Shown piece after piece: positions 12,746 to 57,772 of a stretch of DNA of 64,000 bases. Each line of letters starts with the position of its first letter. The stretch's first letter is position 1. This stretch comes from Metellina segmentata (lineage: Eukaryota > Arthropoda > Arachnida > Araneae > Tetragnathidae), in NCBI GenBank assembly GCA_947359465.1, contig OX375879.1, forward strand, positions 89,131,578 to 89,195,577. Direction: 5' to 3'. Below the pieces are notes generated by a model. That model saw nothing but the letters and a program-made list of their open reading frames with translations. It searched no databases and was not told where the DNA came from. Made by a program: the position numbers and the translations under genes.

Positions 12746-13410
12746 TCTATATATATATATATATATAATTCTCTTACGTGGCACGCAAAAAAAGACGTTA
12801 TTTATTTTCGCGTTTTGGCAACATTGTACAATTCTTTGTTTATCCCAAAGCCTCGGGCTTCAATTAAATTTATAGCGTTATCGGATGAAATTTTATTGAA
12901 AAAAAAAATTTTTAGTTGAGCTGTTGTAGTAAATAATAGAAATCAAAGAAAACGGAGGATATTTTCATAGTCATTTTAAAAAAAGGTCCGTTTCGGGGCA
13001 AACTATTATAGTTCAACAAGACGCTTGCATTACAACTTTCGACAACAAACTCAATGAAAAAGCGTGGGAGGCTCGAGTACTGGGTAAATGTATACACAAC
13101 CAACATGCTGGGTTTTCAATTTCCAAATCAACGCTCACATTTCGAGTCAAAATTTGCTCAAAGTTTCCATTTGAATTCTGATTCCAGAGGTACTGTAAAT
13201 ATCTTTTCTGAAAAACAGCATAAAATTTAGATTTGAAAAATATTTTTTTGGAATATCATATTTTGTAAACAATTCCTTCTGCTAGGACACATGTCTTCCT
13301 TCATTGATGCGAGCGAGGCGAGCATAGGTTCGCGCAGCGAACCAATGAGGATTGCGAAGCAATCCTCTGGGGGTTGGCGAGCGTTAGCGAGTAGGGGGCG
13401 GGCCTCTTGG
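12746..13410 (+). mobile_element. Non-autonomous Helitron, copy 2
   Basis: Co-linear with 5257-5897: TC(TA)n ATTCTCTTACGTGGCACG start, the same interior, then the GCGAGCGAGGCGAGCATAGG block and GGGGGC-GG-GCC hairpin. The terminal CTRR has decayed to TTGG. The histone-like stem-loop region is mutated. No gene content. Confidence 0.8.
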
Positions 13411-13549
13411 TTCTTTATAATTTGTACAACTTACTTTGGACACAATACCTACACATGCATAGCCTTTCTCTTTATGTGTACTTAAATGTTTTATGTATGG
13501 TATTGTGGCTTGCTCGGCTCTCCCTTATCCCCGAATCTCTCCCGTAAGG
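13411..13549. other. Spacer with short frames
   Basis: No recognisable feature; the 64-70-codon frames here are continuations from flanking repeats. Confidence 0.4.
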
Positions 13550-18630: not shown

Positions 18631-19823
18631 CACTATCTACCAATAAGTATTTGGGCACCTGTGATAGAAAAGAAAAACAAAATGTATTCATATTCAATAG
18701 TTGTTAGAGCCTTCACGAGAGGGAATTACAACCTCAACCCTCCGGAGCATGCTTTCCACAAGTCCTTGAATGACGGCTAGTGGTATTTTCTTCCACTTGG
18801 CTTGGAGAAGATATGCAAGTTCCTTCACCTATTTTTGACGGTTGTTGCACCTCTTAATTCGGCGATCCAACTCGTCCTAGATGTTCTCGATAGAGTTCAG
18901 GTCTAGCCTCTGGGCAGGCCAGTCCTTTCGATTAACCCCATTCTCACAATACCAATCCATGGTGGACCTCGCAACATGACAGCTGGCGTTGTCATCCTGA
19001 AAATAACATGGGTCCAACCCATTAAACTGCCACAACGTAGGAAGCACACTGTCATCGAAAATAGTGCAGTATTCCTCTGCGTTGAGATTACCATGAATTT
19101 GGACCAAGGGTCCCAGACCATACCAGGAGAAACAACCCCAGACCATAATTACACCTCCACCGAACTTTACTGTGGGCACAATGCATTCTGGCAGGAGGCG
19201 TTCTCCAGGAAGATGCCATACCCAGACCCTGCCATCCGAACGGTAGAGGGTGAACCTTGATTCGTCGCTCCAAAGAACCCGTTTCGACTGATCTAAGGTC
19301 CATTTTCGATGTGCTCTGCACCACATTAACCGAGCAGCGCTGTTAGACTTTGTGCTCAAAGACCAGCACGACCATGAAAACCAAGCAGATGTGCTTAATT
19401 GAAACAACACTCCCGGATGCCTGTTAAAACTCCTGGAATATGTGGGCCATCGGTTGGGTGCGGTTGTTCCGAATTTCTCAGGATAGCACCCGTCGGTCTC
19501 TGTCTCCCAGTTTTGTGGGTCTGCCGACTCGGGACACATTCCGACAGTCACTGCTCACCTTCCACTTCTGAATCACATACGCCACTGTCGATTTTGGATA
19601 ATTCAGCTCGCTAGATATGTCCCTTAAGGATCGGCCATTTCTGTGGTACCCGACGATTACACCTTTTTCGAAATCAGATAACTCTACACTTCGTGGCATC
19701 TTGCATGTGACTCATGCCAATGTTGTTTCCTACACGATATTTAACAGCGGAGTTCGTGACGAATATTAGAACCGCAGGTATCGTCATTTGCATGGGTGAC
19801 CAAATACATATTGGTAGATAGTG
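18631..19823 (-). mobile_element. Tc1-like element B with both termini
   Basis: Inverted ends of about 31 bp pair with 3 mismatches: left CACTATCTACCAATAAGTAT..., right the complement ending ATTGGTAGATAGTG. The left flank is TA; the right flank is CA, so the second TA has mutated. 1193 bp, normal for Tc1. It contains the transposase pseudogene listed next and directly abuts a truncated Tc1 element of another family at its right end. Confidence 0.9.
18695..19699 (-). pseudogene. Tc1-like transposase pseudogene (element B)
   Basis: The N-terminal frame begins MPRSVELSDFEKGVIVGYHRNGRS at 19699 and holds a homeodomain-like helix-turn-helix (LRDISSELNYPKSTVAYVI). One frameshift at about 19.5 kb leads into the catalytic frame (about 19551-18877): [32 protein letters not shown] and LDLNSIENI, giving an intact D, D and E in a DD34E arrangement. 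TAG then replaces the conserved Trp of the family's ENIWDEL motif (18877), and another in-frame TAG follows about 20 codons later. Family role: cut-and-paste at TA in the nucleus. At least one frameshift plus two nonsense mutations make it inactive, although the ends look mobilisable in trans. Confidence 0.9.
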
Positions 19824-30307: not shown

Positions 30308-31610
30308 TAGAGGCTGTTCACACATTTTTTAGACGATTTTGGTTAGCGGTAATAAAAAATCGTTTGATGCAAAAGAAATAATTGCAGTTGTACTATGTTT
30401 TTAAAAGTCAAAATTATCGTCTGCGGCTTGAGAGGTTTGTTTTTATTCAAAATGGCGTTTTTAATCAAACAGTGGTTCGAAGGCTATGTTTATGCTCTTT
30501 CCGAAGAGAAATATTCATATTCCGTTTTCCAAAAACGATGTGAAAGTCATGGTTTTGTGAACGATCTAAAGCGTCGATAGGTAATATCGTCAACAAAAAA
30601 GGAAAAAAACGTCAAATTGGAGCCTTAAGTGGGACAAAAATTCCAAACAAGTATCCAAGGAAGAAACGGACATCTTCGACTATTGCAAAGGTACGTTGTT
30701 TAATGTTAAAAGAAAATCCCCCTAGTCAAAGGACAGTTGCAAAATCATTAAAATGATCGGTGTCCACTGTAAACAAAATGATAAACGTTGGTTTAATTCT
30801 TAAGAAAGCGAAAAAACGCAATGTGCGATATGCTTTCTCCAAAGCATATCGCTGAACGCAGGACACGCTGCCGAATTCTATATGAGAAACACTTATCCAA
30901 AGAAATATGGAAAAAAATTGTCACAATAGATGAATCATGGGTATATTTAAATGATTGCAGCAAAAAAAGATCAATCTATTATCATAAAAGGGGAAAAAAA
31001 ATTAAGTACATGGTTCACAGAATCGAAAGAAAGTTTTTCTAAGGGATTCATGATTGTTGCTGGTTTTTCATATAATTGCAAGTTAAAAATAAATAGAGTA
31101 ATTAAAAATGTCAAGATTAACTCCAAATACTATCAGGAACATATTTTATCGCCAATTTTTCTGAATGAAATACCATCGCTTTACCCACATTGCCATCAAT
31201 CTGTGGAACTCCATCAAGACAAAGCTAGCAGTCACACATCAAAATCCACTGAAAAAATATTAAAAGAAATGGAACAAAAAACCGGTATCAAGGCCATGCC
31301 CTTCACTGATACCCCTACTAAATCTACCGATGTATCACCTATGAATTTTTGTGCTTTCGGATTTTTAAAATCTGCATTATCCAAACGTCGTCCCACAACC
31401 CTTACAGGACTCTGGAAAGCTGTTCAGGAGGAATGGGATAGAATACCTCTTCTGACACTTCCAAAGGCATTATTATCCTGGAAATTACGGTGTCGAAGGA
31501 TAGTTCAGAATAAGGGCTATCAAATAGAACATTTAAAACATAAGAATTTTATGTAATTTAGTTTTGTGAATGCAATATACACTGTCTAAAAAATGTGTGA
31601 ACAGCCTCTG
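30308..31610 (+). mobile_element. Mariner-type element with TIRs (DD41D group)
   Basis: Ends match as inverted repeats over about 27 bp (AGAGGCTGTTCACACATTTT..., with one change near the tip), flanked by TA at 30306-30307 and 31611-31612. 1.3 kb. Contains the transposase listed next. Confidence 0.9.
30395..31556 (+). pseudogene. DD41D-type (rosa/VISITOR-like) mariner transposase, catalytic Asp to Asn
   Basis: The N-terminal segment (WFEGYVYALSEEKYSYSVFQK) ends at a TAG at 30578. The middle resumes at 30821 (KHIAERRTRCRILYEKHL, VTIDESWVYLND, first Asp) and shifts frame near 31.0 kb. The C-terminal frame runs to 31556 with LHQDKASSHTS (second Asp) and SPMNFCAFGFLKSAL. In relatives the last motif is SPMDF; here the codon at 31344-31346 is AAT (Asn). 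The spacing between second and third positions is 41 residues, which assigns it to the DD41D group. Frameshifts, a nonsense codon and the lost third acid mean no active transposase. Confidence 0.8.
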
Positions 31611-35130: not shown

Positions 35131-35611
35131 CCTCTCAAACTCGCTTAATTGTGAGAAATGTCTTCTCACACGTCTACCTGGCATTCTTCGTTTACTAAAG
35201 TCCTCCTAGAGTCGGATTGTGAACGTCACGTTCTTAAATCTTCCACTATGCGCCGGTTCCACTTCCTGATTGCAGCGATGCTGCAGGGTATGTGGTCATG
35301 CGCATTGGCACCAAAAATGGATCATTTGCATATCGGATCTCACTGTACTTATTTGCAAAGTTTCGCGATTGTAGCTTTCTTCCTTCTTGGTGCGCTATTT
35401 TCAATGTTCTTGAGTGTATTTTACTGTACGCAGAATCAGGCCCATGCTGGCCAGGGGGTCAGGAGGCCGTGTCCCCCTGCGCCCTTTGCCTCAAGAGCCC
35501 TTTTGAAACGAGACATCCACATTTGTAAAAATCTGTGTTTCTCGTGTCTTCACAGGACACCACTTGTTAAAAGTGCAAGTGCACTGTAAATATTCTTACT
35601 TTACGAATTGG
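35131..35611. other. No supported gene
   Basis: A 143-codon plus frame (35158-35589) starts over the degraded Tc1 N-terminal region on the other strand and has one hydrophobic stretch. I find no family and treat it as chance. Confidence 0.4.
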
Positions 35612-36245
35612 GCGCTGCAGTGTATTTACAGGGCTGCCTTAGTTATACAGGTACCTCGAAATTGTAAGGGTGCCACGTTGTTTTTTAGGGCGCCCTTATT
35701 TAAACAGGTACCATGAAATTGTAAGGGCGCCGCGTTGTTTTTTCATTGCGCCTTCAATTAAACGGGTACCTCGAAATTGTAAGGGCACCTCGTTTTTTCA
35801 GGGCGCCCTTAGTTAAACGAGTACTTTGCAATTGAAAAGGTGCCGCGTAATTTTTTGCATGATGCTCTCAGTTAAACAGGTACCTTGAAATTGTAAGGGC
35901 ACTACGTTGTTTTTTCAGGGCACCCTCAGTTAAACCGTTACTTCGAAATTGTAAGGGCGCCGCGTTGTTTTTTCAGGACTCCTTCAATTAAACAGGTACC
36001 TCGAAATGGTAAGGGCACCCTCAGTTAAACGGGTACCTGGAAATTGTAAGTGCGCCGTATTGTTTTTTCAGAGCCCTCTCAGTTAAACAGGTATTTCGAA
36101 ATTAAAAGGGCGCCGCGGTGTTTTTAGAAGGCGCCTTTTGTTAAACGTGTACACTGGCATGGTAAATATCCGTGATTTCCGAGTTGTGCTCTGTAGTGCC
36201 TTTAACAGGTCACCCTTTGTTATACGTGTTATAAATATCCTTGAT
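35612..36245. repeat. About 58-bp minisatellite with GGCGCC hairpins
   Basis: Roughly ten imperfect units with core TTAAACaGGTACCtCGAAATTGTAAGGGCGCC-gcgttgTTTTTTCAGGGCGCCC (shown in pieces; case marks variable bases). GGTACC starts at 35650, 35707, 35765 and 35879, fixing a period of about 57-60 bp. Each unit contains GGGCGCC and its complement about 15 nt apart and can fold. Confidence 0.9.
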
Positions 36246-41818: not shown

Positions 41819-42940
41819 CGCGTTTCTCCTATCAATTCAGAGATTTAAAAAAAACTTAGATGCTTCAGTCAATTTTTCAAAACAAAGAACGTTATTTGCT
41901 AGCAAGCATTTCTGATGTTTTGGGTGAATTAGTTTTATAATTTGCATTTAGTTATAACTGTATTTTTTCTGTAACCTATTAAATCATCTCATAAATTGCC
42001 AATAGATGGAAGCACCACCTATTTGAAGCTCTTGTATTGTCATACTAATCTTATATCTATATTTTAATTATTACAAAATTAAGCTATTGCAAAATTTTAT
42101 TCCGCATTTTGTTGTCCTCACTACAAAAAATCCATTTCAGTAACTTAGCATTTGAACTATTTTACCTCACTTTCATGTCAATATTTTCCTCTCTGTAACT
42201 TTAACTCTGAGAATTGACATGGCAATATTTGTAAACAAAAGCGGGCTTATGGGCGTGATGTCTGCTAGATCGGAAGGTTCTTCTCGGTATTTAAGCAAGT
42301 GTGTCTCTTGTTTGTCGTGTTCAAAGTCGATTCGAAGCAGAAAATAGATTATGAACATAAAAGATGACCGTTACTCAAATTTCCAAAGCTAAACAACGTA
42401 TTTTGAGGAAGGATTGCACTCATCAATTGCGACTTCTCTGTTGTGGAATTAGATAATGCTTTGCGTTTTTTAAGTAATGATTACTCTGTAATAATACATT
42501 GTTGTTGTTTTTTATCTCAATTCTGTAAACAGATAATTTGGCAAAAGTTCCGCAGGGCACCTGCTTGGCGATCTTCTCTTTCCGATGGGAGATAACCAAC
42601 CTAATGTTGCAAACTTAAAAGTCGCCAATTGCAGTCGCAATCGCTTATTTTTCTCATAGGGAATAAATAATTCCCTTTTAATGAGTGGGAAGCAATATTA
42701 GGGATTTTATTCCAAGTTTGTTCTTTAAAATGGCGTATTTTTTCGTACTGAAATACGAAGTACAACTTTTTTTTGAACTATAACATATAATTCTGACGGT
42801 TCCCGAAACCAGAATATTTATATGCAATATGCTTATATTAATATATAATGCTTTATTATTTATATATTTTTTAAATACAATATGCTTATATTTTTAAAAT
42901 AAAAGCATTTTTGTAATGCAGATGAATAATTCAATTAATT
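41819..42940. other. No supported gene
   Basis: A+T-rich; the 61-codon minus frame (42173-42358) is unsupported. Confidence 0.4.
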
Positions 42941-43261
42941 ATACGCCGACAGACCGGGATAGTGGTTAGGGTGTTAGCCTCTAGATCGGAAGGTTCCTGG
43001 TTCGAATCCGGGTCCGGGCATGGATGTTTGTAAGCGTATGGTGTAGAGGCGGCTGGTGCACCTTTAATCTGTCGTGGCCGAAAGTTGGGTTGGTGTGGAT
43101 GTTTGTAGAGTGGGGTGACAGCTCAGGTGTTGCCTCGTCATTTGACCGTGGTACAAAATTACGAGGTGTTGTCCTCGAATTCCCTTAAGGGACTGATCCC
43201 GGACCGTCGTCAATAGCACGTTGTGTAGCACTAGTACGACGTTAACTAAAATTACCATTAC
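42941..43261 (+). repeat. Full-length SINE (family 1, plus)
   Basis: tRNA-like head with GATAGTGGTTAGGGTG (box A region) and GGTTCGAATCC (box B), body, ATTACC tail. CAATTAATT flanks both sides (42932-42940 and 43262-43270) as a target duplication. Confidence 0.9.
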
Positions 43262-43417
43262 CAATTAATTTTCCGTAATCAATTGTTATTCTGAATACGA
43301 TAGCGATTGTAAATTTTTATTTCTCAATGCAAATTAGTTTTAATTACGTGAACAAGTGTATTTAAGGCAATCAAACTATACTTATACGAGATTTCTCACT
43401 ATCTCTCAGAATCGGCG

Positions 43418-43738
43418 CCGAACAAACGGGATAGTGGTTAAGGTGTTAGCCTCTAGATTGGAAGGTTCCTGGTTCGAATCCGGGTCCGGGCATGTTTGTT
43501 AGCGTATGGTGTAGAGGCGGCTGGTGCACCTTAAATCTATCGTGGCCGAAAGTCCTCACGTTGGGTTTCTGTGGAAGTTTGGAGAGTGGGGTGCCAGCTC
43601 AGGTGTTGCTTCGTCATCTGACCGTGGTTCAAAATTAAGAGGTGTTGTCCTCGGATCTTTCCCTTAAAGGATTGATCCCGGATCGTCGTCAATAGCCCGT
43701 TGTGTTGCTCTAGTACGACGTTAACTAAAATTACCATT
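43418..43738 (+). repeat. Full-length SINE (family 1, plus)
   Basis: Same structure as the copy at 42941. The flanks ATCTCTCAGAATCGGCG (43401) and ATCTCAGAGTCGGCG (43739) are a slightly diverged target duplication. Confidence 0.88.
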
Positions 43739-44013
43739 ATCTCAGAGTCGGCGTTACTCAAAACAAATTGCTCATAGACTACATGCAATATGAGTTCAAC
43801 TTGAAGTTCATTTCTGCATTGTCCTCAATACTTGAGGAACACATATAAAACCTTTGTAAGATAGATTTATGCAAATACTATGTCATTTGTACCTTACTTC
43901 ATACCGGGATTCGAACGCAGAACCTGTTGAACCGGGGAATTTACTATCGTCTAGTTTTTTAAGAACAATTGTACAGTATTTGTTATTGAGCAGGGAGAGG
44001 TATTTTTCAATTA

Positions 44014-44096
44014 ACGTCGCACTGGATCAACACAACGGGCTATTGGCGACGGTCCGCGATTTATTCTAAAGGGAAAGATCCGAGGACAACACCTCA
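44014..44096 (-). repeat. SINE 3' fragment (family 1, minus), head-to-head with next
   Basis: AATTAACGTCGCACTGGATC through CCGAGGACAACACCTC: the complement of the SINE 3' third. It abuts an oppositely oriented SINE body. Confidence 0.8.
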
Positions 44097-44281
44097 CTTT
44101 GGGTTGGCGAGGAAGTTTGGAGACTGGGGTGCCAGCTCAAGTGTAACTTCGTCATCTGACCTTGGTTCAAAATTACGAGGTGTTGTCCTCGAATCTTTCC
44201 CTTAAGGGATTGATCCCGGACCGTCGTCAATAGCCCGTTGTGTTGCTCTAGTACGACGTTAACTAAAATTACCATTACCAA
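44097..44281 (+). repeat. SINE 3' body fragment (family 1, plus)
   Basis: TTTGGGTTGGCGAGGAAGTT to the ACTAAAATTACCATTACC tail. With the preceding minus fragment it forms a large inverted repeat. Confidence 0.8.
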
Positions 44282-45225
44282 AACATAAAGTTTGGTCCAA
44301 AGATATGAAGTTGTGCGAAAGTTATTTCATAAAATGTGGCCAAAAGTTTGTATAAATCCACAAAAATTGATAGGTTATTGCAGAAGACTTGCTACACTTA
44401 TCTATTAAAATATATGTTTACATGTAAATCCGTCAAAATTATCGTAATTTAAAAATTCATTTTCCATTTAGTTTGATATCAATTAATTTTTAACTGTAAA
44501 ATGTAAAAACTGATTAAAAGACCAATTGTGATGATTATGAAAGTCTACTGTCCCCTTTAAAGTAATGTGATACGCAATTAGAAACCGTACTTTCATTACC
44601 ATCAAATTTTCTTGCATGTTGTAATTAATGGAAAACATGAACGATTTGCTTACTTTTCTTTTATGAATAAATTGATAAAAACTTCTTGCATCATTGTTTT
44701 CCCGGCACAGTGAATATCATCAGAACCATTATCAATGTCGCTTATTATCAATCGAAATGTCGAACCAAGTCGTGATCACCTACATAATTCGAATTTTCAT
44801 TTTTTTTCGTTTTACTATGAATTGTTCTTTATATTGCAGGACAAAACAGATTTAAAATTAGATAAAAAATCATATTTAAATTCAGAGTTAAATCGAATCA
44901 GAACTAATTATCTTTTTACTGTTTTTTTGTATTTTGTTAGAATAATCAGAAAAACAATTCAGAGTTAGCGGTTCATAGGTTAACATTGAATATGTTCGGA
45001 TTAAACTAAGTCATTCTTGGAGGGGAAATTTATGTTCAACTCTTTGATGTTCTTACTCGTTCCATAAAATTCGTATTATGTTCTTTATTCTTTTACCCAA
45101 CAGAATCAATTAGGTGTGTGCTTGATAATCAGTCATTTTAATCAAGATGTTGTGTTAAGATAAAATCAAAGGTTCTAAAGAAATTTTTCGTTTTAGGTTC
45201 AAATATGATAAACTTAAAATTTTTT
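44282..45225. other. No supported gene
   Basis: A+T-rich spacer; a 77-codon plus frame (44735-44968) is unsupported. Confidence 0.4.
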
Positions 45226-45392
45226 ACTTGACACACGCGCGCATTCATGCGTATGCATCACATGTATGGCTTTCATGCGTGAGCATGTATACACGTATGT
45301 TATGCATACGTCTGTATGCATGCTTATAAGTGTATATGTATGATTTTATATGCGTATGCATGCACTTACGTGTGTTTGCGTGTGATATTTTC
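45226..45392. repeat. Alternating purine-pyrimidine tract (Z-DNA-prone)
   Basis: Long runs of GC/AC/AT/GT steps (ACACACGCGCGC..., TGCATACGTCTGTATGCATG..., TACGTGTGTTTGCGTGTG), about 160 bp, lying just beyond the stem-loop array. Confidence 0.7.
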
Positions 45393-45437
45393 TATTTTTT
45401 AATTATTATGGCAAAGGAAAGGACCTTTTTATATGAT

Positions 45438-45541
45438 GGCTCTGAAAAGAGCCGTTTCTTAAATGATGGCCCTGAAAAGGGCCGTTTTTTTTATGATGGC
45501 CCTGAAAAGGGCCGTTTTTTATGATGGCCCTGAAAAGGGCC
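45438..45541 (-). promoter_or_regulatory. Array of four histone-type mRNA 3' stem-loops
   Basis: On the minus strand: GGCCCTTTTCAGGGCC at 45526-45541, 45498-45513 and 45468-45483, and GGCTCTTTTCAGAGCC at 45438-45453. All fit the metazoan histone stem-loop consensus GGYYCUUHUHARRRCC with perfect 6-bp stems, a UUUC loop, an A-rich 5' flank (AAAAAAC) and an ATCAT 3' flank. Spacing is 28, 30 and 30 bp. A decayed fifth half-unit may be at 45415-45430. The first loop begins 24 nt after the stop codon of the transposase gene. The family role is binding of SLBP and 3' cleavage without polyadenylation. I did not recognise a clear purine-rich U7 site. The plus-strand frame made of DGPEKGRF repeats is this array read backwards. 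Confidence 0.85.
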
Positions 45542-45565
45542 TTTTTTGAGATCACGCGTATAGAT

Positions 45566-46495
45566 TTATGGCACAGGATAGTAGATTTTTACGATTTCTA
45601 TAAACTTAGAAAAACAGTCCAAGTTTTGCTTGCGGCATGTTCTTCTCCAAACGTATTCTAATAACCGGTCCGTCATCATTTCTTTTCTAAGGCCGCCCCG
45701 ATTAATTTTCATTTTTAGATCTTTCCAGGATGATTCTATCGTTTGGGTGTGGGCCCCTGTCAGAGGATCTACAAAATTCTGGGAGTGGTTGACGGTTGCA
45801 TGAAAGTATAATCCCGTCCTCCGAAGTCCAGAGTATGCTCTCCACTGGTCACTCATTATGGTAGTTCCTGGAGCAACATGCTTCAAAATTAAGGGCATTA
45901 AAGTTGCTGCATTTCTTCTATTGTTGGGGCAAACTTCAAACCGAATTTCTTTGGTATCCCTCTGAATGAGGCCCAACACCCAAGTCCCTTCCCTCAACCT
46001 ACCAACATGGTACTTCCTTCTTCCTATTTTAGATTCATCAATTTCAACTATCATTCCAGGGCCTCCTAAAAGACTCTGGCCAACTTGGTGGTTGACCACA
46101 AAGTCTGTTAAAATTTCCCTACAGTAGCTGAACCAGTCAGCTACTGTCTCCCGGCTGGTTGTTTCACTCCTGTCCGATGAATTCAAAATTGTCTGATCAT
46201 AAGACAATCCCTGAGTAAAACAAAAAGTAATTTTCATTACCTTTTCCGTGGATAGCTTTGTATTAGCGAACCACGTACCATGCGCCCGTGAGACACTCTC
46301 TTCTCTGCCAGAACGGTGTTTCTTTTGGCATCTGAATATACCCAATCCTTTCCGATTGTCCAGCTTCATTAAATGCCCCTCTGAACAACGCTTCTCCTTG
46401 GGGATCAATCTTTGCGTCTCTAGCCACGAAATACAAGTTCCTCTATCCCGCGTGATCTCCAGCGAAACATGGAAAAAGTCCATGCGAAAAGCCAT
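45566..46495 (-). CDS. IS1595/ISXO2-type DDE transposase (Merlin-like), intact
   Basis: Intact intronless frame of 309 residues. The N-terminus has a zinc-ribbon-like pattern (C37-SEG-H41 ... FRC56-QKK-H60). The middle, about 84-130, is helical. The catalytic ISXO2-like domain follows: EIDES (D153), SDQWRAY (D216), VNHSQNF and IESSWKDLK (E254), with KIGRRKYHVGR and TWVLGLIQR between. Family role: DNA-cleaving transposase of IS1595/Merlin elements, nuclear in animals. It is the longest and only undamaged transposase frame in the window. The ATG at 46495 is the first in frame; a TATA box lies upstream and histone-type stem-loops lie 24 nt after the TAA. No flanking inverted repeats were found, so it may be domesticated or an element with unseen ends. 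Bacterial contamination is unlikely given these flanks. Confidence 0.85.
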   Translation of the reverse strand: MAFRMDFFHVSLEITRDRGTCISWLETQRLIPKEKRCSEGHLMKLDNRKGLGIFRCQKKHRSGREESVSRAHGTWFANTKLSTEKVMKITFCFTQGLSYDQTILNSSDRSETTSRETVADWFSYCREILTDFVVNHQVGQSLLGGPGMIVEIDESKIGRRKYHVGRLREGTWVLGLIQRDTKEIRFEVCPNNRRNAATLMPLILKHVAPGTTIMSDQWRAYSGLRRTGLYFHATVNHSQNFVDPLTGAHTQTIESSWKDLKMKINRGGLRKEMMTDRLLEYVWRRTCRKQNLDCFSKFIEIVKIYYPVP

Positions 46496-46565
46496 CAGGA
46501 AGAAATGTAAACCTTCTCTCTGATATACTCAGAAAATGATTGTAGGAATGCATAATTCACGTTTC

Positions 46566-46572
46566 TTATATA
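46566..46572 (-). promoter_or_regulatory. TATA box of the IS1595-like gene
   Basis: The minus strand reads GGGTATATAAGAAACGTG. It lies 71 bp before the ATG, so initiation about 30 nt downstream (a TCATTTT context near 46538) would give a 5' leader of roughly 45 nt. Confidence 0.6.
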
Positions 46573-46599
46573 CCCTTGTATATCATTTACGTAGACGAT

Positions 46600-47337
46600 A
46601 AATGTTAATCAATATAAACACATTTAATGCAACGCAAACGATAATTTTATAGAAGGTTATTCACTGTAATCCAACACAGACGATATTTTTTACATACAGC
46701 TGTTCATTTAAATGTACCGCTGATTATAATTCTGCATCTGAAAATGTTTTGGTTTGTTTGGGTGGACAATAATGGACAAACTGCACGAAAGGCAAAGCAT
46801 ACAAACTAATAAAAAGTGATGATTTGATAAAAATTAATTGACCACTTGCCTCTGTGGCACCATATGAGTCCAACTGATTGCTATTGCGCTCAAAGCAATT
46901 CCAGCAAAGGAAGTCAAAACAAATAAATAAAAAAATTTGACTGGCATCGCTTGGTTCTTTTTTTAAAATCGGGATAGTTAAAGGATTAAAATCTATTGTA
47001 ATAAATCGTATGAAAAAAAAAATACATTTTTTTTATGTAAAATAAACGCAAGTTAATTGTAAATTAAGCTGTTTCGTTGTCTTGACAGACACACCACTAG
47101 GCCCACTAATTAAAATACGCAATTGTCAAAGGTCCGGCAGTTTCAGCATTCATGACGGATGCGTCGAGCCCCACGAGAAGCGATTGTGTTAGGGAACGAG
47201 AGTTAGTCATGTAGTAGTAGCTCTTTGACAAAGATCTTTTATAAAACTTCTATTTTACCACTGTACAAATTTATCATTTGCATTTTTGTAATTGGCTTCG
47301 ATTTTAAAAAATAGGAAGAAAAATAAGTTTAGTGTGG
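46600..47337. other. No supported gene
   Basis: A+T-rich spacer upstream of the transposase gene. No matching terminal repeat for that gene was found here. Confidence 0.4.
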
Positions 47338-47489
47338 GTAAGACCAGTAGCGTAGCAAGGTCAGGTGGTACCCAGTGCGGAAAATTTCTTTTGTCAAACC
47401 CCATTGAAATTATTAAAAGAAGGAAAAATAAGATTCAACTATACAAGAGTTATTTTCTGGTTTATTTCTTGGTATTGATAAATAAGCAC

Positions 47490-48960
47490 TTAAAAGACTT
47501 ATTTTCCTAACTTCGTTCCCTGCAATTTTTAAAATGACATAATCAAAATCAATTCCTTTCGCTACTTTATTTTCAATTGACAAAATAGCTAATTCAGAGA
47601 GCCAAGCTTTACTCATAATGGACCTAAGATAACATAAGATGATTAATTTTAGTTTTGAAAAACGCATCTCACATGATGCTACTGAAACACATAGTAGTAG
47701 CGCGGCAAGCGCTGGCCCACGAATAGAAGGGAAGAGTGGGGAAAGGGTGACGCTGAAAGGGGAGACGCATGAGAGATGCAAGAAAATCGGCGTAGGAGGA
47801 AGGAAGGCTTCTTTCGAAGTACCAATAATTGTGTGTATTTATCCGTTCAATAAAGTTTCATTTAAGAATGGAAATTGTTTGCTCTACTTGTAAACAAGGA
47901 TGACAATAAGTAGGACGAGATCGCTCGGAGTACTACACAAATAATGTTAACAAGATTCTTCAGGCTAAACTTAGATTTGGTAATTAATTAATTAATTAAT
48001 TTTTCAATTAACGTCGTACTAGAGCAACACAATGGGCTATTTACCACGGTTCGGGATCAATCCACTAAGACAAAGATCCGAGGACAATACCACGCAATTT
48101 TAAACCACGGTCAGATGACCGTAATTCAAAATCGCGTGGTTTCGTCATCTGACGAAAAGTTAGATTTGGTACAGAATCCGAAAGTTCATATTCAACAACA
48201 AACTCTAAAAATCTTATAGAAGATCCTTCCAGAGAATCTTCTTTTGAAACTTGGTTAGCTTGTAGATGTCTTCTTAGTAGTGAAATCTCTCTAAGGCTAT
48301 CATCTACAGAAAGTTCACAGTTTACGATTACGTTCTGTATTAACTGTGGCAGTTAGTCTTCTGAAGTTGTAATCAGTTTCTTGGGCTCGAAAACTACAAA
48401 CCGAGCTGTAATATTTTCCATGTCTTTACTGTCAGTGTCTATTTCTTGATAAAAACCTGTCAATGCACTCCAGCAATGATCTTTCGAATTCTTCATTCAA
48501 TGTAAGTGGTTCTTGAGCCTTTTCTACAGCCATCATTTTCTTCTTTCTAATGATTCTTCTTTTCACTAAAGGAATGTCCGTCTCTTCACAAGTGTTCGTT
48601 GCAAAATACAATGCTTTCTCACGATCTCATTTCTTTTGTCTTTCAAAAATATTTTCAAACTTCTCATTTTGCTAACACTTCTCAAAACGTATCCCAGCAA
48701 TCTGTAGGTATTGTGAGCGTGGTTTACTTCTTCTAAAACACTACTCCAGAAATACAAAAGACATAAGAAAGAAAAATCACATACTGCTGGCAAAAGGGTT
48801 TCTGTGGGATTACAAAGTTCTTCTACGGCATCAACAATCTTCCAGAAATCAGCTTATACAGTCTTTACAGCTTCGTAGTGAGTACTCCATCATGTGATTG
48901 ACAGTCTCTTGACTGTACCTCCAATATTAGTTACTAGCCACTGCGTGGCTAGCCAGGCGT
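47490..48960 (-). pseudogene. hAT/ZMYM1-like transposase pseudogene (C-terminal part)
   Basis: Minus strand. The terminal block (about 47700-47500) reads SCEMRFSKLKLIILCYLRSI, then LSELAILSIENKVAKGIDFDYVI, typical of the hAT dimerisation region. An upstream segment at 48793-48566 (FSFLCLLYFWSSVLEEVNHAHNTY) fits the central helical part. A SINE composite interrupts it at 48003-48175. Multiple frameshifts; inactive. Confidence 0.75.
48003..48175. repeat. Two SINE pieces in opposite orientation (foldback)
   Basis: A minus-oriented 3' piece (AATTAACGTCGTACTAGAGC ... CAGATGACC) is followed at once by a plus-oriented body piece (CGTGGTTTCGTCATCTGAC). The arms ACCACGCAATTTTAAACC and CAAAATCGCGTGGT are near-complementary. 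Confidence 0.7.
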
Positions 48961-49260
48961 TTCCCGTGCCCGTGGTGTTTGTTTGCGAAGCAAACATAAC
49001 GCCTAACACCACGGGCAACGCCGTGATATAAGGTAGTATTCTGGTGAAAAATTTTCCGCAGATTTCAAATCCGCTGAATTGTTTAATCTATCTTTAACGG
49101 TCTTGGAGATAGAAAAAAGAACTGACTTCAGTTAAAAGATTTGTCGTCTGGCTGGAAATTTATTTGTCCGCGCAAAATCAAAGCGGAAATGAAAAAAAAA
49201 AATTATCCGCGTTCTGCGGTTGAAAAAAACTTGGCATACTTCTAAACCCTGACACCCCCC
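48934..49260 (-). mobile_element. Helitron 3' fragment (23.9-kb family)
   Basis: Starts CTAG after an A, with a perfect CTAGCCAC-TGC-GTGGCTAG palindrome, then GTGTTTGTTTGCGAAGCAAAC and the family interior (TTTTCCGCAGATTTCAAATC, CTTTAACGGTC). The TCTCTACTA end is missing. Right edge approximate. Confidence 0.65.
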
Positions 49261-50643
49261 TAGTACAAACTGAAGAGAACACCTAGTACTCTCCACTACG
49301 CACCGTCGAATTCTGCGTTTCTCTGCGTTTATTGACTGAACTTATGTTTTAATACCCATTATAATGATTTATTGAAGTTACTTGTCAAATGCAGTTATCA
49401 AACTGGTTTTAAGCAGGATGTAAAAAATCATGATTTTTTAACAAAATAATCCATTAATCGGATTTATTTTATTTAAATCGGATTTTTTTTTTAAATTTAA
49501 ATCATGAATTTTTATTTAATTTCTGTGGTCCCTATACACTGTTTTTATAATAATTATATATAAATTTGTTAAATAAAAAATTGAGTTTGTGACATGACAT
49601 GCAAACCGATATTTATTTTTAAGTAAACAATCAGAATTTGCGACATGGTAAATCAATATTTGCTTACTAAAATCAGTTTCTTGCATGGTGATACAATTAA
49701 AAAATGAATTTAAAAAATAAATGCAAAAGGTAAAACATTTGCTTAACTTTAAAACACAAGTTGACATCCCTCATAGTTTTTCTTGAGTAAATTACATCAT
49801 CATGTTAACAAATTTATCAGTAAGTGTAAGGACAGACCTAAACTATTGTCTGAGAAGTAGAATAGAGAAATAATCAGACTAAAGAAATTTCGAATAATAA
49901 AACTGCCGAACAGCAATAATAAATGAATTTTCACTTAGTTTTAATTCACATTGGATCTTTCTTCCTGCTGACATTTTAATGGTTATGTGAGTGAAAATGT
50001 ACATTTCTACTCTTTAATTTCTATTGCACATCACAAGAATAAGCTACTGACAAATGCCTCAAAAAATTTTACTTCCCACTTGTGTTTTTTTTTTTGCTAA
50101 TGAAATCAGTCACCCTTTTAGTTTATAATTTTGAATCAAACTTTTGCATACTTCCTTTAAGTGTTTATATTTTGAGTGCTGTTAATCAGGAATGTTTATA
50201 CATTACTCTTCCTGGTATTTAGATTTATGATGTCATGTGTGTTTACATTACCGGTTCCAGTATATAATATATTCTAATAAGTTACAACTGGCAGTTACTA
50301 TCTTTTATAATATCTAGTAATTGACCCAGTTCCCTCTGAGCTGGGTTGTAGCCATTAGTGCTGAAATCACCATGAGAGCAGAAAGATTAAAGCATTTGAC
50401 CACTTCTGTGATTTTCCTATGGTGTATTTACTTACTTATAAAAATGTAAGATTAGTTGTGATTAAAATCATTATTTTAATCGTTGATTTAAAACTTGACA
50501 CCCTGGTTTTAAGTATAATATTTTTTTAAGTCATTCCCATTTTTTAAATAAAAAAAACACCCACATTTTTACCATTTTGACACCCCCGTATGTGATGACA
50601 CCCCGGGCGGCCCCCACCCACCTTCCTACGCCACTGGAAGACC

Positions 50644-51340
50644 ATGGATTTCTCGGCGACAGTTGAAAAGTGTAAAAAACTTGCTTCCGGAGAGGTCACG
50701 GAAGATCATAGAAGTTACATGAACTATTTAAGGACGGATGAAATGCTTCCAATTATTTGACTCTGAAGGTGGGACCTTTAATACCATGGAAAATGCACTA
50801 CTTTCAACTTTTCCGCAAGGTACTGGCTCGTCAACCAGTTTATTTTACACATCTTGTGATGTACTGGAATCCATTTTCTTTCAAAACATTTTCTATTTCT
50901 TTATAAGCGTTTGTTTCGGTTTTTGTAGTCAGCATGTCCATCATGGAAAAATTCAAATCTATGATATTCACTTATTAACATCTTCGTAGCTCCCCCTGAC
51001 CACCAATCACTCATTTTTGACGTAGCATACGTCTTACCTTTCGAAACTGGGGTACCACGCTTAATTTTCAAGCGTCACAAAAAAAGCGTAAGTGCGAAAA
51101 ATTTAATGATTTGAAATTTTCCCCAGATACATAAATGAAAAATATCGCTTTGAAATGATCATTGAACAAAGAATGTTATAAATACTCATAGATCGTGTGC
51201 TGACGTCATCGGCTGATGCAATCGCAGCGCAAAGTTGAGTCGTCACGAAATGCGCACTGCCGATCACATTTATTTAGTCTTGCACCGGCCTTTTTTGTTT
51301 CGTCTCTTTGCGCTTTAAAATAAAAATAGAAATAAAACTT
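50644..51340. other. No supported gene
   Basis: An 83-codon plus frame (50738-50989) has no motif. The sequence at 51180-51300 is less A+T-rich and could be a leader of the repeated segment that follows. Confidence 0.4.
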
Positions 51341-51503
51341 AAATATTTAATACTTGTTTAGATATCAGACTTCAAAGTGGAAATCCCGCAAAAGTTTCAA
51401 AATGTCCAAATATATGCCTTATATAAACGTCAACAGGAAGAATGATCCAGATTCTGATGCTGAGCGTCAACGGGCTCGGCGAGTTGCTGCTCACATAATT
51501 AGT
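51341..51503 (+). repeat. Direct repeat copy 1 with a short conserved-looking frame
   Basis: Similar to 53325-53500, including TTTAATACTTGTTTA, TTTCAAAAnGTCCAAATATATGC and AACAGGAAGAAnGATC. An ATG at 51402 opens MSKYMPYINVNRKND then DAERQRARRVAAHI before a stop at about 51525. It is basic, with no known domain. Confidence 0.55.
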
Positions 51504-51778
51504 CTAGCCACAGACTCCTTTGTGTGAGCTCGACGTTTGAGAACGTGACAGTTCTTTTCGTGGGAGTCACATTGCCCGTGGTGTTGGTTTCAGGGATTAA
51601 GCTACGATAGAATGCGAAAGAAATGGTAACCACTTTCGCAAAAATGCGAATAAAAAATCTTTATGAGCATAAGTTCCAAAAACGGAAGGATTTCGAGGTA
51701 GAAAATCGCTTTTCTATCAGAAGATCGGTTCTTAATCATTTGAGAAAGAATAATAAACGCCGAGAAAGCAATTGTTCT

Positions 51779-52234
51779 GTTGTTGTTGTTGTTTCTAATG
51801 CCTACACTGGCAGACCAGAGGAGTGCCAGGCCCGTAGAAGACGGCAAGAGGCGAGGGGGTGCGCCTTCCATGTTATTGAGCCCCATTGGGAGGAAGTCCG
51901 ACTTTGCTCGGCATACATGACACATCCGTTTTACAGGAAGGTCCCTTTCATACATGCATTCACTCACACATATCGTAATTTAGATACCAATCAGAGGCCG
52001 ATAACCCTCTGATCAGATACCCCCAGAGGTATTGATTTGGTATGGGAACATGGGGGACTTTGTGACCACGACCTATTTAACGTGCCCCAGTCACCATTAG
52101 TGAACACGACGGTCTTTAGCCAGGTCGAAGCGCCGATCTCACAATCATCAGAATTGCAGGCTCCGCCGAGGACAGAACCCACAACCCTTCTGATGCGAGC
52201 CCGACGCTCTAGTGACTGAGCTACCGCGGCTCTT
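51779..52234 (-). repeat. SINE family 2: tRNA head, (AAC)n tail, 11-bp target duplication
   Basis: On the minus strand the head GAGCCGCGGTAGCTCAGTCA contains a box A, and GGGTTCTGTCC is a box B. A body segment related to family 1 follows (AAAGACCGTCGTGTTC, GCACGTTAAAT), then a different 3' half ending GTGTAGGCATTAGAAACAAC with AAC repeats. GCAATTGTTCT flanks it at 51768-51778 and 52235-52245. Frames on both strands here are not genes. Confidence 0.85.
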
Positions 52235-52389
52235 GCAATTGTTCTTAATTCTGTTATTAAAAGAAATAATTCCGATTGAAATATTCCGATCGTATGTTTT
52301 ATAGCTTCGGTGTTTTTTCTGACAATTTTAATAGGGACATTTTAATGCGAATGCTTAGTGTCTATGTGTAACTTTGTGGTCTTAGCACG

Positions 52390-52608
52390 ATGGAAAAGTT
52401 TCTTGTAGCAAAACGCAAACCTGATGAAATAAGCAGCGTTAATGATTGGGACCTCGAAACAAAAAAATTGGGTTTGCCATCTAAGCAGCTAGTGAAGAAA
52501 TGGTGTTCACTGTATGGATGGTTTGAGGTAATATGGGAAGAAAAGTCACCTCTTTTTAAATGCAGGTTTTGCGAACCAGCCAAGAAAAAAAAAATCTGTC
52601 AAGGATAA
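52390..52608 (+). pseudogene. hAT/KIAA1586-like N-terminal fragment
   Basis: A 73-codon frame MEKFLVAKRKPDEISSVNDW ... LVKKWCSLYGWFEVIWEEKSPLFKCRFC. The KW-x-Y-W ... CxxC layout resembles the N-terminal BED/TTF-type finger of KIAA1586-like hAT-derived proteins. It breaks off after the first Cys pair and is surrounded by Helitron sequence. Confidence 0.55.
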
Positions 52609-53324
52609 AGATAAGCTAAGTTTAATTTTTCGATTCTTACATTCACATTTTATCAGTTATTTAGTTGAAAAAATACCGGAACGCACAGTTAAAAGGTTTC
52701 TTAAGGATTCGCTGTCAACACTGTGTAGACTTGTTTACTAGGTCTTTTTAATGCCAACATCTTTGCTTCATTTCTAAACCTTGTTATGGAATTATATGAA
52801 AAGATAATGAGAGGAAATGTTGAGGAATAAATGAGAGAAACCCAAGTAGAGTAAAATTTTCCGCAGATATCTAATCCGTTGAAATTTTCAATATATCTTT
52901 AACGATCCTATTTTTACAAAAAACTAAACAATGCCCGTCAAAATGTTCGCTGTGAAATCGTTTGAGCGGAGACTACGCATTCCCATTTAATTAAGAGCGG
53001 AAGGTGAAAAAATTTGGCATGGTTTCAAAGGCTGACGTCAATAATGACGATTGTGACGTGACGACATGGGGGGAAAATAGAATTCCATTATTTCTTCCAA
53101 TTGCAGGAGCAGGACGAAACTAAGTTCCAAAGTTGAAAAAAACTATTAAATTCATATAAAAATGTTCTAGATTAAATTTTTAAAATTCGCTTCGACTCTT
53201 AAATTGCAAAAAATTCGGACAACCTGTGTGCCAAATCCCATTACTGTATGTACCATAGATTCGTCAGGACTTTGCAGCCAAGAAAGAAACACTTCCTTTT
53301 ATAATAGTAGAGACAATAAGAGAA

Positions 53325-53500
53325 AACTAAATTTTTAATACTTGTTTATATATGGGATTTCAAAGTAAGGAAAATCGCAAAAATTTCAAAACGTCCAAAT
53401 ATATGCATACTAAACACCAGAAGAACTATAAAAAACGTTAACAGGAAGAACGATCAAGAAATGGTGAGTCCAAGACGATCCGCACATTCGATGCTGAGTG
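53325..53500 (+). repeat. Direct repeat copy 2
   Basis: Counterpart of 51341-51503, roughly three-quarters identical by eye. The MSKYMPY-type frame is broken here. Confidence 0.5.
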
Positions 53501-54494
53501 TTAGTGGAGGAAGTTCTTGAAAGAATAGATGTCGCATCTTCAAGATGAACAAATGCCTGATACGTGTGCGTCAAGTACCTCCATCGCTCACAGTTCCACT
53601 CAAATAGCACATCTGTTGACATAAACGTTTTAGAATCAAATGGTGGAACTCTGTTCGAGTCCGTGTATTGCACGAAAGGAATAAATCCATACTATTTAAA
53701 ATAGAAATCAAATTTGTTACTAACACAAAACCTAATAATTTTATTCCCTTGTCGGTTTTTCAGATGCAGAATAGACCAGAATTTCGACAGAGAAACAACT
53801 TTGGGGAAAAACAATTCTCAATCTAAAGTTCGCAAACACAAATTCATCGGAATGCGATAGCGATTGATCTACTCGTCCAGTAATAAAGTGAATCAAAGAA
53901 TATTTTATACGAAAAGTTCTGAATTAGAACAAAAATTCTTAAAATCCAACAAGTTCAACCCTAGAGGTCGATAATGAGACACAACCTTCAACAGCGAGTG
54001 CACCAATTGAGATATATGTGCGCAGCGATGAACATTTAATGTGTGAATTTAAAACAGACTTGTACTAATTTCTTTCACTTTCATTCTTTATATGACCTCA
54101 CTGACATATTCTATGCCTTAAACCTAGCGGCCGTGTCCCGAATCAGCCGTTTTCTTTAATTATTTGTTCAAATCCCAAAGCTGCAAAGTATGTTCAGCGA
54201 TTGAAACTGCATGAACACGAATCTTTTTCAAGTATTGGATGAGGAGGCTAACTTATATAAAAGAAACTTTGACGAAGCTTTTATCAAAGTTGACCATTAC
54301 ACTACCTTATTTCGTCATCAAACTTTTTTTATAAAAGATCTTTGACAAAAAACTTTTATAATGTAATATAATTTCAATATAATTTTGCTCTTATGAAGTT
54401 TATGAACTTCGAAAGCTCATTTAGATGCTGAAATCACAAATAATGAGTGAAATAATTGTTTACCATGAATATAAAGCATTTATATCTAAAAGCA
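53501..54494. other. No supported gene
   Basis: The 87-codon minus frame (53410-53673) has no recognisable domain. A+T-rich. Confidence 0.4.
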
Positions 54495-54637
54495 CATTTC
54501 GCACCCCGGCAAGAAAAGTGACACAACTCAAAATTGTAGAATTTGAGAAACACATCAACTTAAAGAATACTATAAAACTTATATTGAAACATTTATTTTT
54601 TGACCTGTGTCACTTTTTTTGCATGGGTGCAATTTAT
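54495..54637. mobile_element. MITE deletion derivative (copy 4)
   Basis: CATTTCGCACCCCGGCAAGA left end and a decayed right end (GTGTCACTTTTTTTGCATGGG) as in the 2312 MITE. It is in the reverse orientation (its left part matches the right part of the others) and lacks about 120 bp of interior. Confidence 0.8.
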
Positions 54638-54900
54638 AAAAACATGTCAGAAAATGATTTTCTTCTTAAAGCCAAGTAGTCTGAACTATCTAACATTCAA
54701 TCTTTGGAAGGTATTAAGAAAGCCAATTGATACCAGTACATTTTTTATGTAGAATCAAGTCGTTTCAAAATATTCTTAAGGAATTTTCTGAATTGTAGTC
54801 CCTACACACCACAAGAACACGAAACGCACGACAGTAATATAGAACTAAGAATGCTTATTCTGTTAACAAATAGTTTCCACCCTGTCAAATTTCTTAAACT
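54638..54900. other. Spacer
   Basis: Nothing recognised. Confidence 0.4.
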
Positions 54901-54912
54901 TATCAAAAGTAA

Positions 54913-55237
54913 TTGGTAATTTTTAGTTAACGTCGTACTAGAGCAACACAACGGGCTATTGACGACGGTCCAGGATCAATCCCTTAAGTAAAGATCCGAG
55001 GATAACACCTCGTAATTTTGAACCCCGGTCAGATGACGAGACAACACCTGAGCTGGCACCCCACTCTCCAAACTTCCACACCAACCCAACGTGAGGAGTT
55101 TCGGCCACGACAGATTTAAGGTGCACCAGCCGCCTTTACACCATACGCTTACAAACATCCATACCCGCACCCGGATTCGAATCAGGAACCTTCCGATCTA
55201 GAGGCTAACACCTTAACCACTATGCCGGTTAGTCGGC
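54913..55237 (-). repeat. Full-length young SINE (family 1, minus)
   Basis: Complete copy with a tRNA-like head at the right (CCGGATTCGAATC on the plus strand). TATCAAAAGTAA flanks it at 54901-54912 and 55238-55249, a perfect 12-bp target duplication. Confidence 0.92.
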
Positions 55238-55249
55238 TATCAAAAGTAA

Positions 55250-55589
55250 AGTTACTTACAGTGCAGAAGCCTATGACCTCTTGTACGAGAAGCGATTGAT
55301 TTTTGGATGCCCCGGCCCCATTCATAAACGTTTTAAGGAGATTTGGACCTAAAGACTAAAAATATTAGTTGGTCTCTTATTGGTAATATTTGCCTATCCC
55401 GTTGAAAAGACTTTAAACAAAAAAAAAAACAAAAAAAAATGCTCATAAAATATTAAAATGCTCTTAATTCTCAAAAAGTGGTATAAATGAGAAAAATCTG
55501 AAACACATGTCATCAACTTCGGACCTAAGCAGCCTCCAAAAGCGTATGAAGTAAGCGGAATGTTTAATGTGTAAATTAGATACCAATAA
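55250..55589. other. No supported gene
   Basis: A+T-rich spacer with A-runs at 55421-55439. Confidence 0.4.
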
Positions 55590-55750
55590 AATAATAGAAA
55601 AATAAACAAAAGGATAATAAAAATAAAGTAATAGTAATAATTAACAAAAGAATAATAAAAATAAAATAATAGTAATAATAAACTAAAGGATAATAAAAAT
55701 AAAATAATAGTAATAATAAACAAAATAATAATAAAAATAAATTAATAACA
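55590..55750. repeat. A+T-rich tandem repeat
   Basis: About four imperfect units of roughly 50 bp built from AATAATAAAAATAAAATAAT and AGTAATAATAAACAAA. Minus-strand frames (55394-55836) rich in Phe/Leu/Tyr are artefacts of this tract. Confidence 0.85.
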
Positions 55751-56074
55751 GACCTAAAAATAAAAAACAAATTCCAGAAAAATTCGATTATAATTAACGA
55801 CATTTTGCAGGAAAATTCCAGACAAATAAAACTCATTTACTGAGCACCAATTAAAAACTTTTGCATTGAAATAGTCAAACAATCATTCTTAAAAACAAAA
55901 AAAATAGTAAATACTGTTATTTTTTGTTTTATAACAATGTTTGATATTATAAATAAAAAAAGTATGAGTTAAGAAAAACCTCTGACTCGACACTTACAAT
56001 TTTGAATAGTGTCGTTCATGACTAATACCATTTTTGTACACAAACTTTTCAATATTTGGAAAAGGTTGATCGAG

Positions 56075-56330
56075 GTCCTCTAGATCGGAAGGTTCCTAAT
56101 TCGAATCCAGGTCAATGCATGGATATTTGTAAGCGTATCGTGTACCACGTTGTGTTACTCTAGTACAGGGCTCGAAATACCCAGGTGCACTGTGCACGTG
56201 AAAATAAAATTGTGCACCTAATTTTTCCCCGCTAGGCGCACCTGTGCACCTAATAAAAAAACTTAGGTGCACCTTGTGCACCTGTATTAAAAAATATATT
56301 TCGAGGCCTAGTACGACGTTAATTAAAAAT
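56075..56330 (+). repeat. SINE remnant (family 1, plus) interrupted by a MITE
   Basis: The head TCTAGATCGGAAGGTTCCTA with box B TTCGAATCC is fused by an internal deletion to the 3' tail (ACCACGTTGTGTTACTCTAGTAC). The tail is split by the insertion at 56167-56307 and continues GACGTTAATTAAAA. Confidence 0.8.
56167..56307. mobile_element. hAT-like MITE (short form) inserted in a SINE
   Basis: Ends AGGGCTCGAAATA and TATTTCGAGGC are inverted repeats (CAGGG-type hAT terminus). CTAGTAC is duplicated at 56160-56166 and 56308-56314, and the uninterrupted SINE copies elsewhere have it once. The interior is a GTGCACCTAA foldback; a deletion derivative of 3650-4214. Confidence 0.85.
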
Positions 56331-57772
56331 CTCAGTACAATAGACTACTATTCACGGTGCTGGCACTCTTCGGAGTCACCCCCACAAAAAGTCATAATTA
56401 AAAATTACAAAATTATTCAATATTTGGTTCAATCGGAACTAAAAGTGTTCTGGTGAACCTTTACAATCAAAACAGTTATTAATTATAAAAATATATAGAA
56501 AATGACATTTGTGCATCTAAGCTATTCTTTTGTCTCAGAAACTTCAACTATTCCATAAATATCATTTGAGAATTCTCTGTCTACATTTCACTTGAGAAAT
56601 TTTCCATAAGATTGGTATATCATCTTGCCGTGGGCTCAAGTTCGATTCACATCGCAGTCGAGCAACAATGTGTTGGGTCATGTAGGGTCAAGAAAATTAC
56701 TTGAAGGTGATGATTATTTTTTGTAAGTTAATTATTAATATTTTTTCAAAGTTAAAACACAGCGAAATACCTGGGTGATTCATAAAATAATGAAAAAAAA
56801 TTCAGAACAAAAACAGAATTGCCATTATGAGTTTTAACATTGGAATAGTTCAATAAAAGTAACAAGTAGCACAAAAACGCATCGAAAAAAATGAAATATA
56901 TTCACAAACCTTTTTTCCCTAAAAAGGTTTCTTAAAATATCCCTAAATTTACGCTACATCATTATTTATTCAAGAAAACAAACACAAACGATAAGTAGGC
57001 GGAGACAAATGCAAGCGATGCGATTTCTAATATTGTATAAATATCGCCAAAAGAAGTTGAAATAATGATAAATTCTATTTTATTTCATCATGATAAGTAA
57101 AATTTTGTTGAATAGTTTTTTCAATTAGAATTTTTGTATTATGTTCAACTGTTGCTGTTGTGAGTATAAGTTTTGATTTTTTTTTTAATCTACTGTGCCA
57201 CTTTGTTTACAAATTTCCCTGCTATTCTTGAATTTAGATTACACTGTGATATACCTATTGTTCTGAAAACTATCGTAGTTAAAAATGAAGGGTTTTTCAA
57301 ATAAATCGAAACGAATGAATGTTTTCTTAGTTTCGGATTGATGTAATGGTTTTATTTTTACCTTTTTCTAAATGCATATATATTGACATAAATTCATGCT
57401 TTTCCCAAAGGGTTTAACTCTAAATTATAATTTGTATTTATTAAATTGTAAGTACGTGTAAAGAATTTTTATGTTAAAGCATAGTATACTTTTTTAATTA
57501 ATTTTTCCTCATTTTGTTCGTATTATATTAATATTTTCTTATTATATATGTTACTGACATATTTCTTTTTTTAATTCACATTTACAAAACTACTTTTTTA
57601 TCTCCTTTGGTTTTTTTTTTATTTATTTAGTTAATACTGAAATCATCATTTTTGTTGAATTGATTTTAATTTTGTGAGTAAGAATAACTCTTTTTTTTTT
57701 TATTCATTTTCAATAAATTTGAATTGATCTGTGCTTATGAGAAATATATGTATGTCAACTACTCATTTTCAG
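56331..57772. other. Upstream region of the transporter gene
   Basis: A+T-rich with no repeats recognised. The promoter and any noncoding first exon of the SLC26-like gene should lie here or further upstream; no TATA box stands out. Confidence 0.4.

Follow-up and report, generated by a model that had tools for sequence, protein, structure and literature searches.

The window, i.e., the whole stretch of 64,000 nucleotides of Metellina segmentata DNA that was analysed, holds an intact transposase gene of the IS1595/Merlin type within a large transposon copy, a tandem array of histone-type stem-loops (SLs) in the predicted 3′ UTR of this gene, and two copies of a non-autonomous Helitron family with SLs of its own (Table 1). 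The preliminary description had reported four perfect 16-nt hairpins, three of one form and one variant, 28-30 nt apart on the minus strand, the first of them 24 nt after the TAA of an intact 309-residue IS1595/Merlin gene and in sense with it, and all of this was confirmed by the coordinates. It had overlooked the two SLs of the first Helitron copy (5463-5478 and 5490-5505). Two further regions of the window were recorded in passing: ORFs at 18877-19551 and 30951-31556 resemble, by eye, pieces of Tc1/mariner-type transposases, and a 58-bp tandem repeat at 35610-36102, with units of the form GGGCGCC...TTTTTTCAGGGCGCC, looks vaguely like an SL.

Table 1. Features of the window discussed in the text, by position.
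Feature	Position	Strand	Remarks
Non-autonomous Helitron copy with two SLs	5257-5897	+	5′ TC, 3′ hairpin, CTAA before T
Helitron SL, imperfect (5/6 pairs)	5463-5478	+	GGATCTTTTCAGGGCC; one mismatch to the pattern
Helitron SL	5490-5505	+	GGTCCTTTTCAGGGCC; AAAAAAC before and AACA after, much like host histone genes
Second copy of the Helitron family	12754-13412	+	decayed SLs; right end approximate
Merlin-type transposon copy, family A	42540-57065		left end intact; alignment with other copies stops at ~57065
Left terminal inverted repeat	42540-42572	+	begins GGCAAAAGTTCCG
Tandem array of histone-type SLs, predicted 3′ UTR	45418-45547	minus	Tandem Repeats Finder: period 30, 4.5 copies
SL4	45438-45453	minus	GGCTCTTTTCAGAGCC; 29.0 bits in Rfam Histone3, the highest of the four
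SL3	45468-45483	minus	GGCCCTTTTCAGGGCC
SL2	45498-45513	minus	GGCCCTTTTCAGGGCC
SL1, first in the transcript	45526-45541	minus	GGCCCTTTTCAGGGCC; starts 24 nt after the transposase stop
Transposase ORF, intact, 309 aa, IS1595/Merlin type	45566-46495	minus	TAA at 45566-45568; Pfam PF12762

The predicted transposase matches Pfam PF12762 (DDE_Tnp_IS1595) at 3e-16 and 60.2 bits, where the cut-off is 27. In a 14-row alignment E254 is invariant and D153 and D216 are kept in at least 90% of the rows; we take these two aspartates and the glutamate to be the DDE positions. Among database proteins the best match, 50% along the entire length, belongs to the spider Oedothorax gibbosus, and one relative was found in viral contigs. 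Genome-wide we counted at least 134 matches to the transposase, a lower bound in that 128 of 1298 candidates were scored. Among the matches listed, seven copies span all 309 residues at 96-100%, six of them without stops, and there are many open-frame copies of other Merlin families at ~38% identity to the transposase of the window.

Three other copies of the transposon align with the window in pieces at 91-99%, starting at 42537-42540 and extending over 42540-48459 (L009), 42538-57025 (L010 with L014) and 42537-57065 (L011 with L015). The L011/L015 copy is complete and measures 15,312 bp by coordinates. Its terminal repeats begin GGCAAAAG and agree in 31 of the first 33 positions, and the copy is flanked on each side by GCGTGTTA, a perfect target duplication of 8 bp (one copy tested). 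A terminal-repeat scan with up to 9 mismatches did not find a right terminal repeat for the window copy. By these sequence features, namely the IS1595-type DDE transposase, the GG-starting terminal repeats and the 8-bp target duplication, the element of the window is assigned to the Merlin superfamily, with repeats and duplication taken from the L011/L015 copy, the window copy showing its left end alone.

The SLs of the array start 30, 30 and 28 nt apart, all four have six of six pairs, and their loop letters are those of the host H4 and H2B genes. Read on the plus strand, every repeat of the array shows a GC-rich hairpin with a T-rich run after it. The window contains six matches to the SL at no more than two mismatches, where 0.35 were expected and none of 100 shuffles reached six, and in the 200 nt behind the transposase stop not even one SL was obtained in 100,000 mononucleotide shuffles. 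RNA folding of the array gave z = -6.45, with all four SLs kept in the predicted fold, and the pattern GGCYCTTTTCAGRGCC occurs 500 times in the genome (1.665 Gb), as against three times for the reversed pattern. The shuffles, the folding z and the genome count against its reversed control rule out a chance origin of the array. Inspected by eye, the array showed no histone downstream element. Signals of the polyadenylation type follow the transposase stop at 165 nt (ATTAAA, the weaker one) and at 479 nt (the nearest AATAAA).

To learn which signals the host uses, we read its own histone genes. Of 78 matches to H4, 35 lie together in a single stretch of C9, and H4 clusters stand on C9, C53, C6 and C126. 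With histone clusters in a genome of 1.67 Gb, a bacterial or viral origin of the window is ruled out. We read one histone repeat unit (L102) and, for five further H4 genes (L103-L107), the region of the 3′ end. The H4 and H2B genes carry GGCCCTTTTCAGGGCC and an H1-like gene, so labelled by eye from its lysine-rich end, carries GGCTCTTTTCAGAGCC, while H3 has GGCCCTTCTCAGGGCC, H2A GGCCCTTTTAAGGGCC and one divergent H4 gene GGTTCTTTTCAGAACC; the SL is single in each gene and follows an A-rich stretch. The Merlin SLs are thus letter for letter those of the host H4/H2B and H1-like genes and are likewise preceded by an A-run. The earlier claim that the hairpins are of the histone type therefore stands in this host, whose histone genes end in identical 16-mers after an A-run. 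The change from C-G to T-A pairs in the fourth hairpin, which had been read as compensatory and as a sign that the stem is kept up, loses its weight as independent evidence: SL4 equals another SL of the host, and because the host itself uses both versions the change is not accepted as proof of selection. The distance from stop to SL is 24 nt in the transposase gene as compared to 34 nt in one host H4 gene, and the 3′ flanks differ (ATCATAAAA in Merlin versus AACAAATT in the host).

A default Rfam scan of the window gave no hit at all, because all four SLs (23.9, 24.0, 24.1 and 29.0 bits, the first three being SL1-SL3) fall under the family cut-off, the RF00032 gathering score of 34. The same model gave 38.2, 35.5, 32.8, 32.3, 29.8, 27.0 and 26.6 bits for seven SLs of the host, so that in this species the cut-off does not separate histone SLs, only two of the seven reaching it. 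SL1-SL3 score below every one of these, and SL4 lies within their range (26.6-38.2). The Merlin SLs of the window and of L009-L011 together scored 23.5-29.0, most of them near 24. Two Helitron SLs obtained 30.1 and 31.1 bits, and SLs at L036 and L025, two loci described below, 26.0 and 31.3. The SLs of the array, then, are described here as matching the histone SLs of their host and as possibly functioning similarly, not as RF00032 members by Rfam's rule.

As for the machinery, the SLBP RNA-binding domain was found at one host locus (E 2.7e-24, over the curated cut-off) and in none of 14 control genomes. A search for U7 snRNA gave no match in the host, nor in any of its 14 controls, and by eye no obvious downstream element of the AAAGAG type was seen in the host histone genes. 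Two side observations concern the histone loci. No SL matched the pattern within ~300 nt behind three dispersed H4 genes (L105-L107), so that the H4 genes of this host seem to be of two kinds, with and without an SL at the end. The histone repeat unit also contains a 5S rRNA gene (L102:3973-4091, Rfam 111 bits).

The array is part of the transposon, not of the window alone. Five full-length copies of the seven listed were read behind the stop (the window, C4:123767366, C4:124685441, C8:29693803 and C11:47942676), and all five carry it, with three GGCCCTTTTCAGGGCC and one GGCTCTTTTCAGAGCC each, which rules out an oddity of the window. The transposase ORF of C4:124685441 has one TGA; those of the other four are open. 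A frameshifted copy of family A (L011) has two SLs only, the second imperfect. In sub-family B, represented by three copies (L077-L079), roughly the first half of the transposase is missing through an internal deletion and a stop interrupts the rest, so that this sub-family is ruled out as a source of transposase. In the two copies in which both SLs could be read, each SL lacks one pair; in the third copy the first SL is shortened. The copies are 93-99% identical to each other, and their spread thus went on with imperfect SLs, although they encode no intact transposase themselves.

The preliminary description had proposed that the transposase mRNA could end like a histone mRNA and be expressed in S phase, a proposal which the present results support in part, and had made it depend on homologous genes carrying the stem-loops. 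This held for the five full-length copies of the same family, but one related Merlin family at 38% identity (C5:9719636-9720505), the sole one read among the many families at that level, lacks an SL in the 117 nt that follow its stop, and the array is hence not general to Merlin. Within family A, four copies compared are 98.5-99.0% identical in the coding sequence and 99.3-99.8% downstream, too alike for their perfect SLs to show selection. The difference between perfect SLs in the five full-length copies and imperfect ones in the deleted sub-family does point to a function, on few lineages, and the loss of pairs in sub-family B is what would be expected if constraint ends with the gene. An SL of the form GGCCC..GAGCC is common to L011, sub-family B and L036; it could represent an imperfect ancestor whose pairing was regained in family A, or it could have arisen by repeated deletion hybrids.

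Most of the dispersed SLs examined belong to the Helitrons. Elements of this class begin with TC, end in a 3′ hairpin with CTRR and insert between A and T, and these hallmarks were read by eye both in the element at 5257-5897 and in a consensus of 21 copies. This consensus starts with TC and finishes with CTAG, and it contains two SLs at a distance of 27 nt, of which the first is imperfect. We fetched 86 SL sites singly from the first 100 of the 500 places listed (C1-C5); these 100 come first in contig order and are hence not a random sample, and they lie outside the H4 clusters of C9, C53, C6 and C126. The Helitron family, recognised by a match of at least 150 nt to the Helitron copies of the window, accounts for 81 of the 86 sites (26/28, 37/40 and 18/18; L001-L008, L016-L034 without L025, 37 of L037-L076, and L084-L101). 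The other five comprise three of Merlin sub-family B, one divergent array (L035/L036) and one that is neither (L025). Twelve further listed places make up four arrays (L009-L012), of which L012 resembles the Helitron form by eye. As the loci were chosen by the SL itself, the conservation of the SL in them is biased.

The SL region of the Helitron consensus, AAAAAACGGCCCTTTTCAGGGCCAACAATT, resembles the 3′ end of host histone genes, and the likeness of the flanks suggests that a histone 3′ end was captured. The Helitron SLs lie inside non-coding elements, away from any visible gene 3′ end, and since this is where most of the examined sites are, an SL in a transposon need not be the 3′ end of an mRNA.

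Two other contexts are of interest as leads only. At L036:4720-6112 (minus strand) a 366-aa ORF is followed, 41 nt behind its stop, by a divergent SL array that is in sense with it; the array and ~130 nt of its 3′ flank are 77% identical to positions 45307-45547 of the window. The ORF is unrelated to the transposase, has no Pfam domain above cut-off and found no database homologue at E 0.001. At L025:880-1110 (minus strand), outside Helitron and Merlin, a short open frame is followed by a single perfect SL together with several weaker CCCTTTTCA motifs, and the peptide upstream of them matched nothing in Pfam or PDB; the locus may be that of a host gene whose 3′ UTR contains SLs of the histone type.

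We tentatively favour a histone-type 3′ end on the transposase mRNA, formed and timed by the host SLBP, as the most likely function of the array, on the grounds of its position and strand, of the letters that it has in common with host SLs and of the SLBP domain gene in the host. The array would have arisen from a histone 3′ UTR that was captured and then multiplied in tandem. Host SLBP would bind it, and transposase transcripts would lack a poly(A) tail and be most abundant in S phase, such that transposition coincides with replication; several SLs might compensate for weak flanks or for a weak downstream element. A bolder version extends to both elements: two unrelated classes of mobile DNA, Merlin and Helitron, would have taken over the histone 3′-end signal of the host in tandem, and Merlin would make a poly(A)-less, SLBP-dependent transposase mRNA and so jump during replication, when sister copies serve repair and gain. 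We regard this combined scenario as speculative and rather doubtful.

A serious rival, close behind the histone-type 3′ end and itself a real possibility, is that the array is an inert passenger, a piece of histone 3′ UTR captured by mobile DNA, possibly via the Helitron, and multiplied by slippage with no role in transposase expression. The predominance of a non-coding Helitron family with a histone-like SL region among the dispersed sites agrees with this, as do the varying number of SLs (two in L011 and sub-family B, four in the full-length family-A copies read) and the lack of a selection signal in recent copies. A passenger would, however, not be expected to stand just behind the stop and in sense, nor to be perfect in all full-length copies read and imperfect in the deleted derivatives read, and the divergent array at L036 is likewise found just after a stop, in sense, behind an unrelated reading frame.

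It is rather improbable that the mRNA is instead polyadenylated downstream, with the SLs serving as SLBP sites within the 3′ UTR for cell-cycle stability, export or translation. The tandem arrangement, the absence of a recognised downstream element, the ATTAAA and AATAAA signals and the retention of all four SLs in the predicted fold would fit such an mRNA; yet the host histone genes read carry single SLs, and single histone SLs form the mRNA end in animals. A role of the hairpins at the level of DNA, or as a terminator for transcription of the opposite strand, is very unlikely: both bearers are DNA transposons and the plus strand does read as hairpin and T-run, but any histone SL that follows an A-run automatically shows a T-run on its opposite strand, the array would match host SLs letter for letter, down to the loop, by coincidence, intrinsic terminators of the hairpin and T-run kind are bacterial, and the tandem pattern had one match in contigs of prokaryote genomes and none in viral contigs.

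To our knowledge, the histone SL is in animals essentially private to replication-dependent histone genes, and among the papers listed by our literature search, with most subscription literature outside its scope, none was found to describe a transposon with a histone SL. If used, an SL behind the transposase would by simple means link transposition to S phase and escape the control that depends on poly(A), and with an SL-bearing transposon the timing of DNA transposons could be tested directly. Even if inert, SLs spread by Helitrons would mislead motif-based counts of histone genes or of SLBP targets.

Compared with the 3′ stem-loop of histone mRNAs (RF00032; SLBP), the array has the host's 16 letters, an A-rich 5′ flank, the sense orientation and a start 24 nt after the stop in common. 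It differs in having four SLs in tandem where histone mRNAs have one, in sitting behind a transposase, and in its different 3′ flank with no downstream element seen; it misses the Rfam cut-off, as do five of the seven host SLs, three of its four SLs scoring below all seven. Merlin elements, relatives of IS1016/IS1595, are characterised by an IS1595-type DDE transposase, GG-starting terminal repeats and a target duplication of 8 or 9 bp, and the present element is like them in having the DDE_Tnp_IS1595 protein, GG-starting repeats and 8-bp duplication described for the superfamily (PMC8101967). Its size of 15.3 kb and the histone-type SL array in its predicted 3′ UTR set it apart from the described Merlins; the words "histone", "stem-loop" and "hairpin" do not occur in the main text of that paper (PMC8101967). 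Caenorhabditis Helitrons are reported to spread heat-shock elements, a host regulatory motif (PMC6927752), and the Helitron family described here similarly carries a motif of host regulatory type to many places. Its motif differs from the heat-shock elements in that it is an RNA processing signal, is present in tandem and also occurs in a Merlin element unrelated to the Helitron.
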